This document shows, one piece after another, positions 39,764 to 57,830 of a stretch of DNA of 64,000 nt. A program made the position numbers and the translations under genes. How positions within the stretch are numbered: the stretch's first letter is position 1; every line of letters begins with the position of its first letter. Under the pieces are notes generated by a model. That model was not told the DNA's origin. It ran no database searches and saw only the letters and a list, made by a program, of their open reading frames with translations. The DNA is from Streptomyces sp. NBC_01478. GTDB lineage: Bacteria > Actinomycetota > Actinomycetes > Streptomycetales > Streptomycetaceae. The stretch covers positions 2,523,501 through 2,587,500 of the forward strand of contig NZ_CP109444.1 in the NCBI RefSeq assembly GCF_036227225.1, in the 5' to 3' direction.

Positions 39764-39836
39764 GCGGACGTAGCTCAGTTGGTAGAGCGCAACCTTGCCA
39801 AGGTTGAGGTCGCCAGTTCGAACCTGGTCGTCCGCT
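39764..39836 (+). tRNA. tRNA-Gly(GCC)
   Basis: Acceptor GCGGACG pairs with CGTCCGC, discriminator T. D-arm AGCTCAGTTGGTAGAGC, anticodon arm CAACC-TTGCCAA-GGTTG with anticodon GCC, T-loop TTCGAAC. 73 nt, no CCA. First gene of the five-tRNA cluster. Confidence 0.97.
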
Positions 39837-39875
39837 CGCAGGAAGTGGGGGATCTTCCCGAACCCCTACGCTCCT

Positions 39876-39946
39876 GGTGGAGTGGCCGAGAGGCGAGGCA
39901 ACGGCCTGCAAAGCCGTCTACACGGGTTCAAATCCCGTCTCCACCT
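39876..39946 (+). tRNA. tRNA-Cys(GCA)
   Basis: Acceptor GGTGGAG pairs with CTCCACC, discriminator T. Anticodon arm ACGGC-CTGCAAA-GCCGT gives anticodon GCA; T-loop TTCAAAT. 71 nt, no CCA. Confidence 0.96.
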
Positions 39947-39950
39947 CCAA

Positions 39951-40022
39951 GGACGATTAGCTCAGCGGGAGAGCGCTTCCCTGACACGGAAGAGGTCACT
40001 GGTTCAATCCCAGTATCGTCCA
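39951..40022 (+). tRNA. tRNA-Val(GAC), copy 1
   Basis: Acceptor GGACGAT/ATCGTCC, discriminator A, anticodon arm CTTCC-CTGACAC-GGAAG with anticodon GAC, T-loop TTCAATC. Starts four bases after tRNA-Cys. Confidence 0.97.
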
Positions 40023-40041
40023 CTGGTCCGCAAGGGCCCCC

Positions 40042-40113
40042 GCGCGATTAGCTCAGCGGGAGAGCGCTTCCCTGACACGGAAGAGGTCACTGGTTCAATC
40101 CCAGTATCGCGCA
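40042..40113 (+). tRNA. tRNA-Val(GAC), copy 2, acceptor-stem variant
   Basis: Same as copies 1 and 3 from base 4 inwards, but the acceptor is GCGCGAT/ATCGCGC: pairs 2-71 (G-C to C-G) and 3-70 (A-T to G-C) are both changed with pairing kept. Discriminator A unchanged. Confidence 0.96.
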
Positions 40114-40147
40114 CGCACCACCCATGATCCGCGGATCGTGGTCCCGA

Positions 40148-40219
40148 GGACGATTAGCTCAGCGGGAGAGCGCTTCCCTGACACGGAAGAGGTCACTGGT
40201 TCAATCCCAGTATCGTCCA
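40148..40219 (+). tRNA. tRNA-Val(GAC), copy 3
   Basis: Identical over 72 nt to copy 1 (acceptor GGACGAT/ATCGTCC, anticodon GAC). Last gene of the cluster; a strong hairpin follows. Confidence 0.97.
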
Positions 40220-53327: not shown

Positions 53328-54164
53328 TCAGCCGGAAGTGACCGGCAGGACAGAGCCCTTGTACTTCTCCGCTATGAACTTCTTCACGTCGGAGGAGAGG
53401 AGAAGCTTCGCGAGCTTCTCTACCCGGGGGTCGTCCTCGTTGCCGCGTTTGACGGCGAGGAGGTTGGCGTAGGGGTTGCCCTTCGCCGACTCCAGGAGGA
53501 TCGCGTCCTCGGCGGGGCTGAGGCCCGCGTCCTGGGCGTAGTTGTTGTTGATGACGGCCACGTCCAAGTCATCGAGCGAGCGCGGCAGTTGGGCCGGGTC
53601 CAGCTCCTTGAACTTGAGGTGCTTCGGGTTGGCCGTGACGTCGGCGGGGGACGCGTCGGTGCCCGCCCCCTTCTTGAGCGTGATCAGCCCCTTGGCGGCG
53701 AGGAGTTTGAGGGCGCGTCCCTCGTTGGTGGTCTCGTTGGGCACGGCGACGGTGGCTCCGTCGGCGAGCTCGGCAATGTCCTTGACCTTCTTGGAGTACA
53801 CGCCCATCGGCGGCAGGTACGCCTTGACGACCGAGACCAGGTCGGTGTCCTTGGACTTGTTGAACTCGTCGAGGAAGGGCTGGTTCTGGTAGAGGTTCGC
53901 GTCCAGCGAGCCCTCCTGGAGCGCGGTGTTCGGCAGGACGTAGTCCGTGAACTCCTTGATCTCCAGGTCGAGTCCGGCCTTCGCGGCCAGGTTGTCCTTG
54001 ATGTACGTCAGGACCTCGCCGGCCGGCACGGCGGTGGCGCCGACGACGAGGGTGCCGTCGGCCTTGCCGGCGCCCTTGCCGGAGTCGGAGCCCGAACCGC
54101 AGGCCGTGAGGCCGAAGAAGGTCACGGCGAGTCCGGCCGCCGTGACGGCGATGCTCTTGCGCAT
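53328..54164 (-). CDS. metQ: MetQ/NlpA-family methionine-binding lipoprotein (distal copy)
   Basis: 278 residues, lipoprotein signal with lipobox LTAC (Cys22). Periplasm-side binding protein that delivers methionine (or an analogue) to MetNI. NlpA marks: VGATAVPAGEVLTYIKDNLA, EFTDYVLPNTAL, GVYSKKVKDIAEL, AVPNETTNEGRAL, SLDDLDVAVINNNYA. ATG at 54164, 32 bases after the first metQ copy. About as long as, and clearly paralogous to, the neighbour; ligand-pocket residues may differ. Confidence 0.93.
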   Translation of the reverse strand: MRKSIAVTAAGLAVTFFGLTACGSGSDSGKGAGKADGTLVVGATAVPAGEVLTYIKDNLAAKAGLDLEIKEFTDYVLPNTALQEGSLDANLYQNQPFLDEFNKSKDTDLVSVVKAYLPPMGVYSKKVKDIAELADGATVAVPNETTNEGRALKLLAAKGLITLKKGAGTDASPADVTANPKHLKFKELDPAQLPRSLDDLDVAVINNNYAQDAGLSPAEDAILLESAKGNPYANLLAVKRGNEDDPRVEKLAKLLLSSDVKKFIAEKYKGSVLPVTSG

Positions 54165-54196
54165 GGTGATTCCCCCGGCTCTGTTCAGAAGGACGG

Positions 54197-55033
54197 TCAG
54201 AAGGACGGGATGACGGACCCGGCGTACTTGTCCTCGATGAACTTCTTGACCTCGGGCGAGGTCAGCAGCTTCGCGAGCTTCTTGACGCGCGGGTCCTTCT
54301 CGTTGCCCTTCTTCACGGCGAGGAAGTTGCCGTAGGGGTTGTTCGTCGCGGACTCCAGGACGATCGCGTCCTTGGCGGGCTTCAGGCCCGAGGAGATGGC
54401 GTAGTTGCCGTTGATGACGGCCGCGTCGACGTCGTCCAGGGAGCGCGGGGTCTGGGCCGCCTCCAGCTCCTTGAACTTGAGGTTCTTGGGGTTCTTGGTG
54501 ATGTCCGCGGGGGTCGCCTCGTTGCCCACACCGGACTTGAGGGTGATCAGTCCGTTGGCCGCGAGCAGCTTGAGGGCGCGGGCCTCGTTCACGCTGTCGT
54601 TCGGGACGGCGACCGTCGCGCCGCTCTTCAGGGCGTCGGCGCTCTTCACCTTGTGGGAATAGAGGCCGAGCGGCTCCAGGTGGACCGTGACGACGGGCAC
54701 GATGTGGGTGCCGTTCTTCTTGTTGAAGTCGTCGAGGTACGGCTGGTTCTGGAAGTAGTTGGCGCCCACCGAGCCGTCCTCGGTCGCCGTGTTCGGCGTG
54801 ACGTAGTCGGTGAACTCCTTGACCTCCAGGTCGAGTCCGGCCTTCTTCGCCAGGTGGTCCTTGACGTAGTCGAGGATCTCGGCGTGCGGCGTGGGGCTCG
54901 CGGCGACGACCAGCGGTCCGCTGTAGTCGGCGGAGGCCGAGGAGGAACCCTTGTCCGAGCCGCAGGCGGAGAGCGCGAAGGTGAGCGCTCCGGCGGCGAG
55001 GACGGCAGTGGTGAGCTTTGCGGTGTTACGCAC
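54197..55033 (-). CDS. metQ: MetQ/NlpA-family methionine-binding lipoprotein (proximal copy)
   Basis: 278 residues, lipobox LSAC (Cys24). Same motifs as the distal copy: VVAASPTPHAEILDYVKDHLA, EFTDYVTPNTA, GLYSHKVKSADAL, AVPNDSVNEARAL, SLDDVDAAVINGNYA. GTG start at 55033. Tandem duplication gives the transporter two receptors, perhaps for different forms such as D-methionine, methionine sulfoxide or a peptide. The 85 bases before it, after metI, hold no gene. Confidence 0.93.
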   Translation of the reverse strand: MRNTAKLTTAVLAAGALTFALSACGSDKGSSSASADYSGPLVVAASPTPHAEILDYVKDHLAKKAGLDLEVKEFTDYVTPNTATEDGSVGANYFQNQPYLDDFNKKNGTHIVPVVTVHLEPLGLYSHKVKSADALKSGATVAVPNDSVNEARALKLLAANGLITLKSGVGNEATPADITKNPKNLKFKELEAAQTPRSLDDVDAAVINGNYAISSGLKPAKDAIVLESATNNPYGNFLAVKKGNEKDPRVKKLAKLLTSPEVKKFIEDKYAGSVIPSF

Positions 55034-55118: not shown

Positions 55119-55823
55119 CTACGCGGCCTTCAGCAGCCGGAGCCTCGGCGCGGGACCCGACCGTCCGCCGCGCCGGTGCACGGAGCGGGCCGCGTAGTCG
55201 CCGGCGAACTGGATGAGGGAGATGACGACCGCGAGGATCGCCACGGTGATCCACATCAACTGGGTCTCGAAGCGCTGATAGCCGTAGCGGATGGCGATGT
55301 CGCCGAGGCCGCCCGCGCCGACCGTGCCGGCCATCGCGGAGTAGCCGATGAGGGCGACGATCGTGGTGGTGGTGCTGGAGATCAGCGAGGGCAGGGACTC
55401 CGGTACGAGGACCTTGCGCACGATGGTCCAGGTGTTGCCGCCCATCGACTGCACGGCCTCGACGAGCCCGCCGTCCACTTCCCGGACAGCAGTCTCAACC
55501 AAGCGCGCGAAGAAGGGAATTGCCCCGATGGCGAGCGGCACGATCGCCGCCTCGCGGCCGATGGTCGTCCCGGTGATGGTCCGGGTGAAGTTCATCAGCG
55601 CGACCATGAGGATGATGAACGGCAGCGAGCGGGCGACGTTCACGATCTGCCCGATGACCTTGTTGGCGGCGACGTTCTGGAGCAGTCCGCCCCGGTCGGT
55701 CAGGACCAGCAGGATGCCGAGCGGGAGACCGCCGACGACGGCGATGACCGTGGACCAGCCGACCATGTAGAGCGTGTCCCAACACGCCTGGGACAGCAGG
55801 GGCTGCATCTCGGACCAGCTCAC
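55119..55823 (-). CDS. metI: MetI, methionine ABC transporter permease
   Basis: 234 residues, five membrane helices. MetI-type N-terminus with CWDTLYMVGWSTVIAVVGGLP, RSLPFIILMVALMNFTR, GREAAIVPLAIGAIPFFARL, and the coupling region EAVQSMGGNTWTIVRKVLVP. GTG at 55823 overlaps the metN stop by four bases. Forms the channel with MetN. Confidence 0.95.
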   Translation of the reverse strand: MSWSEMQPLLSQACWDTLYMVGWSTVIAVVGGLPLGILLVLTDRGGLLQNVAANKVIGQIVNVARSLPFIILMVALMNFTRTITGTTIGREAAIVPLAIGAIPFFARLVETAVREVDGGLVEAVQSMGGNTWTIVRKVLVPESLPSLISSTTTTIVALIGYSAMAGTVGAGGLGDIAIRYGYQRFETQLMWITVAILAVVISLIQFAGDYAARSVHRRGGRSGPAPRLRLLKAA

Positions 55824-56854
55824 TTGGCACCTTCCTTCAGCAGCACGGGCTCCTGGCCCAACACGTCGATCTGCAGGCCCTGTTCGCGCAGGAAACCGAT
55901 CGGCACCACGTTGTCCTCGTAGCGGCCGGGCAGTTCGATGCGCATACGGCCGACCTGGAGTCCGCCGACGGTGTCGATGGCGGCGCCGAGGATCGAGATG
56001 TCGATGTTGTAGGTGCGCGAGAGCTGGGAGATGACGGGCTGGGTGGCGGCCTCGCCGTGGAAGGTGACGTCGACGACGGTCCGGTCCTCGCCGTCCGCCT
56101 CACCGCTGACCGGGAAGAGCGCGGAGGCCAGCTCGGAGCCGGGGGTCGCGAGCAGTTCGCTCACCGTGCCCGACTCGACGATGCGGCCGTTCTCCATCAG
56201 GGCGGCCGAGTCGCACACGTTCTTGACGACGTCCATCTCGTGGGTGATGAGCAGGACGGTCAGGCCCAGTTGCCGGTTCAGGTCGCGCAGCAACTGGAGG
56301 ATCGAGCGGGTGGTCTCCGGGTCGAGGGCGCTGGTGGCCTCGTCGGAGAGCAGCACCTTGGGGTCGCCGGCCAGGGCGCGGGCGATGCCGACGCGCTGCT
56401 TCTGGCCGCCCGAGAGCTGGGCGGGGTAGGCCTTCGCCTTGTCGGCGAGCCCGACGAGGTCGAGGAGTTCGAGGGCCTTGGCGGACCGTTCCTTCCCCGA
56501 CTTCCCGAGGATTTCGAGCGGCAGCTCGATGTTGTCCTGCACGGTCCGCGAGGAGAGCAGGTTGAAGTGCTGGAAGACCATGCCGATACGGCTGCGGGCC
56601 TGCCGGAGTTCCCGTCCGGCGCGCGGCCCGCGTCCGGCGAGGGCGGTGAGGTCCTGCCCGTCGACGGTGACCGTGCCGGCGGTGGGCTGCTCCAGCAGGT
56701 TGACGCAGCGGATGAGCGAGGACTTGCCGGCGCCGGACTGGCCGATGACGCCGTACACCTCGCCTTCGCGGACGTGGAGGTCGACGCCGTCGAGGGCGGT
56801 GACCTCACGGCCGCGTGAGCGGTAGACCTTGGTCAGGCCCGATGTGGTGATCAC
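55820..56854 (-). CDS. metN: MetN, methionine ABC transporter ATPase
   Basis: About 344 residues. Walker A GQSGAGKSS (38-46), Q-loop FQHFNLL, signature LSGGQKQRVGIARAL, Walker B VLLSDEATSALD, H-loop ITHEM. C-terminal NIL domain (about 265-340) that in relatives binds methionine and inhibits transport. GTG at 56854 is preferred; a GTG eight codons upstream (56878) is open. Preceded by 166 bases of leader and the Cys/Met leader peptide. Confidence 0.95.
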   Translation of the reverse strand: MITTSGLTKVYRSRGREVTALDGVDLHVREGEVYGVIGQSGAGKSSLIRCVNLLEQPTAGTVTVDGQDLTALAGRGPRAGRELRQARSRIGMVFQHFNLLSSRTVQDNIELPLEILGKSGKERSAKALELLDLVGLADKAKAYPAQLSGGQKQRVGIARALAGDPKVLLSDEATSALDPETTRSILQLLRDLNRQLGLTVLLITHEMDVVKNVCDSAALMENGRIVESGTVSELLATPGSELASALFPVSGEADGEDRTVVDVTFHGEAATQPVISQLSRTYNIDISILGAAIDTVGGLQVGRMRIELPGRYEDNVVPIGFLREQGLQIDVLGQEPVLLKEGAK

Positions 56855-56959
56855 TGGGGTTCCATGACTGTCGAGCACGCGGGCGTGGGTGTGCCCTCGT
56901 ACGGATGGGAAATGTGCGCGGGGCGGCGTCGGTCACGTAGGAACTACGGACATGCCACA

Positions 56960-57000
56960 ACGACTCGCTTCGGGGCGCGAGGCTCGGGGCGCTGAGCCCG
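56960..57000 (-). promoter_or_regulatory. Hairpin pair in the metN leader, possible attenuator
   Basis: On the RNA strand, GGCTC/GAGCC (56981-56985 with 56994-56998) is followed by CTCGC/GCGAG (56964-56968 with 56977-56981), between the leader-peptide stop and metN. They could switch with leader translation. The stems are short, so this is suggestive only. Confidence 0.4.
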
Positions 57001-57020
57001 GGGGGTGGTGCGGGGGCCCT

Positions 57021-57107
57021 CTAGAAGGCGCACATTCGACACATACAGCGAGCACCGGGCGTCAGGGTCGCCTCGGTCGCAAGGGTGCGGCTGCTCGTCG
57101 TGGTCAT
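57021..57107 (-). CDS. Candidate Cys/Met leader peptide upstream of metNIQQ
   Basis: 28 codons, ATG at 57107, TAG at 57021. The N-terminal part is Thr/Ala-rich; the last eight codons read CMCRMCAF, preceded by Arg: three Cys (residues 21, 23, 26) and two internal Met (22, 25). Cys and Met codons are rare in such sequence, so this density just before a stop, upstream of a methionine transporter, fits a ribosome-mediated attenuator sensing Met and/or Cys supply. The -10 lies only four bases before the ATG, which suggests a leaderless transcript. Too short for usual gene finders. Role is inference. Confidence 0.6.
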   Translation of the reverse strand: MTTTSSRTLATEATLTPGARCMCRMCAF

Positions 57108-57111
57108 GGAA

Positions 57112-57140
57112 TCAGTAAAGCAGACGTACGGTCCTGACAA
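57112..57140 (-). promoter_or_regulatory. Promoter of the leader peptide and metNIQQ
   Basis: -35 TTGTCA (57135-57140), 17-base spacer, -10 TACTGA (57112-57117), then TTCC and the ATG. The spacing is ideal for sigma-HrdB; the last base of the -10 is not the usual T. Confidence 0.55.
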
Positions 57141-57179
57141 AGCGCCGCTGTCCGCATGCCGGACAGCGGCGGACGGCTG

Positions 57180-57830
57180 TCAGCGGCGCTCGGAGATCTC
57201 CACTCCCCCGTCGCTGACCAGCGCGGACAGGGCTGACAGGTTGCTCACAACAAAGTCCGCGTCGAGCTCGTGTGCCTCGTGTGTTGTGGCCAATGCCACG
57301 GTGATCATTCCGGCCGCGCGGCCCGCCTGGAGTCCCGCCGGGGCGTCCTCGAAGACGACGCAGTCGGCCGGGTCGACGCCGAGTTGGCGGGCGGCGAGGA
57401 GGTAGGGCTCGGGGTCGGGCTTGCCGCGTGTGACGTCCTCGGCGACGACGAGGGTCTTGGGGAGGATGCCGGCGTGCGCGAGCCGGGCCTCGGCGAGCCG
57501 ACGAGTGGCGGAGGTGACGACGGCCCAGCGGTCGGCCGGCAGCGAGTCGAGGAAGTCCCGGGTGCCGGGCAGCAGGACGGCACCGCCGTTGGGCACGTCC
57601 TCCACCTCCAGCGCCTCGATCCGCGCGACCGCCATAGGCACGACATCGGCGGGCAGCAGGTCGGCGGCTATCTCCACGGCGGTCCGCCCGTGCAGCTCGA
57701 CCCGCGCGAAGTCCTCGGCGGTGATCCCGAACTCCTCCGCCCACCGGGTCCAGCACCGGCGCACGGACTCGAGGGAGGAGACGAGCGTGCCGTCGTTGTC
57801 GAACAGGAGGGCTTGAGCGTGGATCTTCAT
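57180..57830 (-). CDS. HAD-family sugar phosphatase-like hydrolase
   Basis: 216 residues. HAD motif I is DNDGT (Asp14 and Asp16 in LLFDNDGTLVSS), motif II in VVTSATRR, motif III Lys in RGKPDPEPY, motif IV FEDAPAG. The cap is the helical type of beta-phosphoglucomutase/sugar-phosphatase members (WAEEFGITAEDFARVELHGR). ATG at 57830. Likely hydrolyses a small phosphate ester. Divergent from two small membrane proteins. Confidence 0.92.
   Translation of the reverse strand: MKIHAQALLFDNDGTLVSSLESVRRCWTRWAEEFGITAEDFARVELHGRTAVEIAADLLPADVVPMAVARIEALEVEDVPNGGAVLLPGTRDFLDSLPADRWAVVTSATRRLAEARLAHAGILPKTLVVAEDVTRGKPDPEPYLLAARQLGVDPADCVVFEDAPAGLQAGRAAGMITVALATTHEAHELDADFVVSNLSALSALVSDGGVEISERR

Follow-up and report, generated by a model that had tools for sequence, protein, structure and literature searches.

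Four genes of a methionine uptake operon, metN, metI and two copies of metQ, lie on the minus strand from 56854 to 53328 of the window (the whole stretch of 64,000 nucleotides that we analysed, from a genome of 12.1 Mb in a single contig) and are preceded by a short upstream open reading frame (uORF; Table 1). Among the matches listed, the closest relatives of metN are from Streptomyces. Against the NCBIfam MetN model the metN product scores 387 bits, which is below the cut-off of 499.7, yet this model is its top match and both the ABC and the NIL domains are present. The NlpA-type metQ gene is duplicated in tandem after metI (53328-55033, minus strand). On the other side of the uORF a gene for a HAD-type hydrolase ends at 57180, and between its stop and the uORF promoter there is a strong inverted repeat, CGCCGCTGTCCGGCATGCGGACAGCGGCG (57141-57176), that has no T run and is perhaps the end of the upstream transcript. 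(Five tRNA genes are clustered elsewhere in the window, at 39764-40219 on the plus strand.)

Table 1. Genes and predicted leader elements at the metN locus (window coordinates)
Feature	Coordinates	Strand	Basis
metN, methionine ABC transporter ATPase with NIL domain	55820..56854	-	conserved GTG start at 56854; family and domain matches
metI, permease	55119..55823	-	NF008049, above cut-off
metQ, NlpA-family lipoprotein, first copy	54197..55033	-	PF03180
metQ, second copy	53328..54164	-	PF03180
Extended -10 element (TG-n-TTTACT), from which a leaderless transcript is predicted to begin at the uORF ATG or close to it	57114..57122	-	sequence and orthologues
uORF of 28 codons and a TAG stop, predicted to be leaderless and to encode a metL-like leader peptide	57021..57107	-	ATG at 57107, TAG end at 57021; sequence and comparison
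Putative sensor codons 21-26, Cys-Met-Cys-Arg-Met-Cys	57030..57047	-	conservation counts and sequence
Predicted three-way junction of the ORF RNA: P_A 57105-57093 with 57053-57038, P_C 57089-57078, P_B 57077-57054	57038..57105	-	folds and pair counts
Possible P1 5' arm AAUGUGCGC, which overlaps the final Met-Cys codons	57028..57036	-	moderate; counter-evidence from energies
Possible P1 3' arm GCGCACAUU, 56 nt before metN	56911..56919	-	moderate
P2 hairpin CUCGC-GCCCCGAA-GCGAG, after the uORF	56964..56981	-	alignment; search pattern in 138/150 leaders
P3 hairpin GUCCGUAG...CUACGUGAC	56932..56951	-	predicted, minimum-energy fold of the window leader

The peptide specified by the uORF is MTTTSSRTLATEATLTPGARCMCRMCAF, with the C-terminal tail ...GARCMCRMCAF. 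The original prediction had placed a 28-codon ORF with a Cys/Met tail immediately upstream of metN; when its coordinates were checked the ORF was indeed present on the minus strand, but its stop lies 166 nt away from the conserved GTG start of metN at 56854. Five of the six codons 21-26 specify Cys or Met, which account for 1.04% and 1.52%, respectively, of the 13,069 codons in 30 gene-like ORFs of the window. By the codon use of the window, at least five Cys/Met codons in six are expected by chance at about 6e-8 per position, and among its 651 ORFs of at least 15 codons (six frames) the uORF alone has such a run near its end; the original observation holds. Searches of NCBIfam and Pfam with the uORF peptide returned no matches, and a covariance model of the uORF RNA found no credible further copy in the window's genome (the second match had an E-value of 5.6).

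The likely -10 element of the uORF is TTTACT (57119-57114), which is preceded by an extended TG and lies six bases before the ATG, rather than the four bases first reported. Although a simple sigma-70 scan of the window detected no promoter for the uORF, reading of the sequences reveals the TTTACT box at this position in 187 of 194 orthologues, and the longer motif TCTGnTTTACT occurs 6-7 nt before the ATG in 172 of the 194. This spacing, together with the S. lividans orthologue metL, whose start is given as leaderless (PMC8079986), lends comparative support to the idea that the uORF is translated leaderless, from a predicted start at or near the ATG.

A search of 150 Streptomyces genomes with the uORF peptide matched 146 at an E-value of 1 or less, and 138 of these matches were accepted as real. 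Twelve of the 150 genomes had no good match; six of them lack metN at E 1e-90, four have metN with a diverged uORF that is in frame, and the remaining two were not judgeable, the match falling at a contig end or the N-terminus being missing. Where loci were picked by metN alone, the uORF was found at 17 of 17 in Streptomyces and Kitasatospora (L039-L054 and L090). We also ran the covariance model of the ORF RNA on 150 Streptomycetaceae genomes from 17 genera. It matched 67 of them, in 8 genera (one of the two matches in genome G279 is spurious), and metN was detected in 122, in 15 genera. The region before metN was retrieved from 40 of the 57 metN-positive genomes that the model did not match (all 20 outside g14 and 20 of the 37 in g14), and at 39 of these 40 loci there is a uORF with at least four Cys/Met in its last 14 residues (L358 and L361 by eye), with a TTTACT-like box before the uORF at 37. 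The uORF is found before metN in all 15 of the Streptomycetaceae genera in which metN was found. (Note that six rows were removed, namely L302, where the model match lies inside another gene, L224, where the contig ends before metN, and L225 and L228-L230, which are weak peptide matches without metN. Note also that three pairs of loci, L039/L166, L047/L207 and L052/L346, appear to be duplicate records, which slightly inflates the locus counts, and that the 150 Streptomyces rows amount to 116 distinct ORF sequences.) Three loci of genus g7 stand apart. At L357 the tail alone is left (RMCRMCA plus stop), with no recognisable start or promoter; at L279 and L283 the uORF and its tail are retained before a metN that aligns partly and gives no match at E 1e-90.

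The set of intact copies comprises 194 ORFs, the 150 from Streptomyces plus 44 others (33 from other genera and 11 from diverged Streptomyces), that range from 26 to 38 codons in length. The distance from the ATG to the tail takes 11 values, all of them multiples of three, in 192 of the 192 copies that have the GAATG anchor (this anchor was sought inside the open ORF and is absent from two of the 194, L156 and L222, by substitutions and not by shifts). The remainders modulo three are 102/35/31 for the spacer from the stop to P2 (168 of the 194 copies, those with a recognisable P2) and 75/67/51 for the distance to metN (193 copies). It is from this conservation of frame that translation of the uORF is inferred.

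Each of the 194 tails contains at least three Cys and Met residues together and at least one Cys, and 193 contain at least one Met, the exception being L222, the tail of which has four Cys and is Met-free; the mixed Met/Cys signal that had been proposed is in this way supported by comparison. Likewise, the 39 extra copies from genomes that the model did not match have at least two Cys and at least one Met in their last 16 residues. How well a position is kept varies along the tail: of the 150 Streptomyces rows, 149 retain Met 25, 145 Cys 23 and 141 Cys 21, whereas Met 22 is found in 128 and Cys 26 in 106. Met 22 is lost from 22 rows and the final Cys from 44, in which Arg (42) or His (2) takes its place; these losses weigh against the attenuator reading proposed below. 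The spacing of the tail is highly variable (CMCRMC, CMCRLMCRMC, RMCCRMC and CRCMCRSCQMCRMC all occur), and the tails of distant genera, for example CRCMCRSCQMCRMCGC and RGMRSMMRCCRMCGC, are still Met- and Cys-rich even though both the N-terminal part of the peptide and the predicted fold have changed. The original prediction had been made to depend on conservation of the codons and the reading frame in relatives, and both the frame and the Cys/Met tail are conserved. Judged by comparison, codon content, rather than any one residue or fold, is the most durable feature of the element, and this argues in favour of a ribosome that reads both sulfur amino acids.

The RNA of the ORF itself is predicted to fold into a three-way junction, in which, counted in nucleotides of the message, P_A is formed by 3-15 with 55-70, P_C by 19-30, and P_B, with a bulged A, by 31-54. 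(One P_A pair is an A-C mismatch in the window copy, where codon 20 is CGC and not CGT.) In an alignment of 70 matches, a chosen set that is rich in other genera and diverged copies and was fitted to the model, which biases it towards structure, 91.5% of cells are paired compared to 88.2% after shuffling. Moreover, changes on both sides of a pair occur in 13 of the 25 pairs and in 58 cells, compared to 19.9 (sd 4.2) in shuffled alignments, none of 500 of which reaches 58, and to 9-15 in slid versions of the same alignment. Of 65 sequences of the 70-source alignment, 32 do not form the A-U pair that closes the loop of P_C. (A first alignment, which held 10 chance matches, was discarded.) Streptomyces taken alone shows little covariation, with 95.6% of cells paired versus 95.2% after shuffling and 7 cells changed on both sides versus 0-8 in slid versions. 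Comparison shows that the ORF is conserved together with its reading frame, the Cys/Met tail and the fold of its RNA. The proposal that the uORF is a leader peptide that may attenuate is partly supported: the comparative evidence favours a Met/Cys leader peptide, but the element is more than a peptide, its synonymous sites being frozen by the fold of the ORF's RNA.

The leader downstream of the junction is less clear-cut. A helix, P1, in which we have moderate confidence, may be formed between the final Met-Cys codons and a segment close to metN; tail type and partner vary together at most loci, though not at all of them. At the 150 Streptomyces loci, GUGCGC tails go with GCGCAC in 65 of 77 cases and with GUCAC in 4, and GUGUGAC tails go with GUCAC in 18 of 22 cases and with GCGCAC in 2. 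In the second set, of 44 loci, GUGUGAC tails go with GUCAC in 10 of 14 cases and with GCGCAC in 1; 12 of these 14 are from other genera, and by reading, GUCAC is present in 9 of the 12, all 9 in g7. Against P1, 19 of 41 leaders with AUGCGCGC tails have none of GCGCAC, GUCAC and GCGCAU, and 9 of 26 second-set loci with other tails also contain GUCAC. Calculated energies fail to support P1 for the AUGCGCGCC tail type, and for the GUGUGAC type foreign tails beat the leader's own tail (32 and 34 of 36). P_A and P1 both overlap the sensor codons without excluding each other, and the energy test of P1 is mixed. An alternative pairing, considered by eye, might be that of codons 18-20 with the 3' arm of P2. 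(In L272, L274, L277, L278 and L287 of g7, the P1 arms resemble, by eye, a compact stop-codon hairpin around a GGGC/GCCC stem.) The stretch just before metN (GCACUCGACAGUGACGGAAACCC, 56855-56903, minus strand) is strongly conserved in Streptomyces and is preceded by a GUGC...GCAC hairpin-like element; RNAalifold predicted almost no structure for this stretch.

We found no terminator-like sites in the window leader, and a T run of at least four is present in only 13 of 191 leaders. Thus, a classical attenuator with an intrinsic terminator was rejected as a candidate, a GC hairpin with a U run not having been found before metN. The leader is 45% C and 29% G, and C exceeds G in 191 of 191 leaders, which is compatible with Rho.

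Taken together, we think it probable that the uORF is a leaderless, ribosome-mediated attenuator of metNIQ that senses both sulfur amino acids, by whichever last step. From the sequences we infer translation, stalling, a dependence on Met and Cys, and a link to metN, as follows. Transcription would start at the uORF ATG, and a ribosome would follow RNA polymerase along the uORF, translating it. A shortage of charged tRNA-Cys or tRNA-Met would stall this ribosome on the CMCRMC codons, whereas with both in good supply it would reach the stop, its position selecting which RNA helices form. In the stalled state the ribosome would open the three-way junction and leave free at least part of the P1 arm; once at the stop, it would cover that arm. 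The last step may be Rho-dependent termination in the C-rich leader, which P1 and the hairpins it encloses would hinder during a stall. This last step, which we prefer although we hold it somewhat less likely than not, is a guess arrived at by elimination.

A different last step, translation attenuation, falls within the same attenuator reading, and the probability just expressed for that reading includes it. Here, the uORF region would hide the metN ribosome-binding site and stalling would free it, an architecture like that of the cysteine genes of M. smegmatis cited in PMC13236596, and one to which the course of P1 from the uORF tail towards metN and the strongly conserved sequence before metN would lend themselves. 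We folded leaders at equilibrium with the ribosome masked at either the first Cys/Met codon or the stop. The metN Shine-Dalgarno (SD) sequence was unpaired at 0.46 when the ribosome was stalled and at 0.44 when it was at the stop, a mean change of 0.013, and among 84 leaders its opening on stalling rose by more than 0.1 in 10 and fell by that much in 3. The metN start codon was, if anything, less open on stalling (up by more than 0.1 in 2 of the 84, down in 14). A consistent masking of the SD was rejected because equilibrium folding shows no steady effect, and we regard translation attenuation as rather unlikely.

Alternatively, the junction could bind a sulfur metabolite in the manner of a riboswitch, with P1 part of the expression platform and the ORF secondary. 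Synonymous sites are frozen while amino acids vary at loop and junction positions (codon 6 specifies at least seven amino acids and has C as its third base in at least 147 of 150 Streptomyces rows; at codon 9, at least 131 of these 150 rows have NNT), there are the compensatory changes in the junction, and TGT makes up 396 of the 537 Cys codons of the tails as against 11.8% of those in the genes of the window, a preference for a rare codon for which the fold offers a reason. All of this would suit an RNA-level receptor. On the other hand, every change in the length from ATG to tail keeps the frame, the tail is intact at 39 of the 40 metN loci that the model did not match, with different predicted folds in those inspected, and the junction, which begins at nt 3, must be melted by a translating ribosome. 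In addition, an Rfam search gave no match at the gathering score at the leader and chance-level matches only below that threshold, and on this basis a known RNA family or known riboswitch was rejected. We consider a riboswitch-like leader improbable. A compound design seems to us unlikely rather than improbable; in it, a translated sensor of both sulfur amino acids would be joined to a three-way junction beginning at nt 3 of a leaderless transcript, so that initiation, stalling and possibly a ligand would be integrated ahead of the onset of methionine uptake. If it were true, the persistence of the codon signal in genera where the fold is lost would make it a new attenuator design.

The uORF might instead act not through its codons but through its product, as a nascent-chain arrest peptide or as a Cys peptide that responds to redox state or metals. 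The tails commonly show CxC spacing, and metQIN of S. coelicolor are reported to rise under oxidative stress (PMC4991794). The induction is, however, attributed in that same report to the HbpS-SenS-SenR system (PMC4991794), and it follows that the leader need not be the sole control of the operon. Moreover, the spacing of the tail varies widely, and N-terminal residues change where the RNA permits. We had entertained the conserved N-terminus as evidence for an arrest peptide and rejected it, the variable residues falling in loops and the junction and the third positions being fixed; because it is the RNA fold of the ORF that freezes synonymous sites, conservation of the N-terminus does not speak for a function of the peptide. 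We judge a peptide of this kind quite improbable. Finally, the abundance of short ORFs in the window might have led one to suspect that the uORF arose by chance in GC-rich intergenic DNA. Because its frame and its Cys/Met content are both conserved in 15 genera, we set this reading aside, and its probability is negligible.

Part of this element is already in print. A reannotation of S. lividans TK24 lists metL (SLIV_29928), MSTTSDRTPATEATTTPGARCMCRRMCAF, as a leaderless attenuator peptide of metNIQ that is methionine-dependent and has several methionines and threonines, and notes several hairpins downstream but no typical terminator, so that termination is called unclear (PMC8079986). We take metL to be an orthologue of the uORF, given that it belongs to the same peptide family and has the same position; loci L175 and L177 encode exactly the metL peptide. 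The description of metL in PMC8079986 appears to mention neither Cys, nor conservation, nor an RNA fold. The original prediction had taken a mixed Met/Cys sensor of metNIQ to be non-standard; the element itself is in print, though described by its methionines and threonines. In the open-licence literature of PubMed Central we found no fuller description than the S. lividans metL entry. The element was known before in one species, and to this we add its distribution across the family, its Cys component and the fold of its RNA.

Several known systems resemble the leader in part. The cysteine-rich leaderless uORFs of mycobacteria (PMC4633059, PMC1262725) are likewise short, with Cys near the stop, and stand before sulfur genes; a 2005 survey described such cysteine leaders as having Cys codons near the stop and no conserved terminator hairpin (PMC1262725). 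The uORF may work like a mycobacterial polycysteine attenuator. It differs in that Met makes up 16% and Cys 24% of tail residues overall, the target is methionine uptake, and there is a conserved three-way junction; in place of the mycobacterial run of Cys codons before cys genes, the window copy has Cys codons interspersed with those for Met and Arg, before metNIQ. (Canestrari 2020 reportedly also belongs with the cysteine-rich leaderless uORFs of mycobacteria.) Classical attenuators, such as those of trp, ilvB and leuS in Streptomyces (PMC1262725), share the short ORF with sensor codons and helices that, as predicted here, overlap those codons, whereas in the metN leader no intrinsic terminator was found, the sensor codons are for two amino acids, and the fold starts from nt 3. 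The Streptomyces-metH and Streptomyces-metK RNAs and the SAM riboswitches of Rfam are also structured leaders of sulfur genes, as listed for S. lividans (PMC8079986), but none matches the metN leader. Note that the same 2005 survey reports that methionine operons of Actinobacteria are not preceded by a conserved RNA structure, and that it recounts that changing candidate regulatory codons of S. coelicolor ilvB had no effect, a warning for conclusions of this sort (PMC1262725).

If the attenuator reading is correct, methionine uptake throughout a family of antibiotic producers would be set according to the supply of both Met and Cys, through a single leader. With a definite sensor and fold, the unclear termination of metL (PMC8079986) also becomes directly testable. 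Furthermore, the leader offers a clean case for separating selection at the level of codons from selection at the level of RNA, the two diverging between genera.

Beyond the family, the covariance model matched Streptomyces only among 197 genomes of the class, in a search whose filters lose weak matches. In a comparable scan of 21 metN loci from outside the family, 18 had at most two Cys/Met. At L377, L378 and L384, from family f17 of the same class, there are Met/Cys-rich uORFs with a GTG start, such as VNVAHGIDMTPQGRVMCRGMRRCGTSRMCAMGGMPSMR, 175-180 nt before metN, and these are either related or convergent leaders outside Streptomycetaceae.
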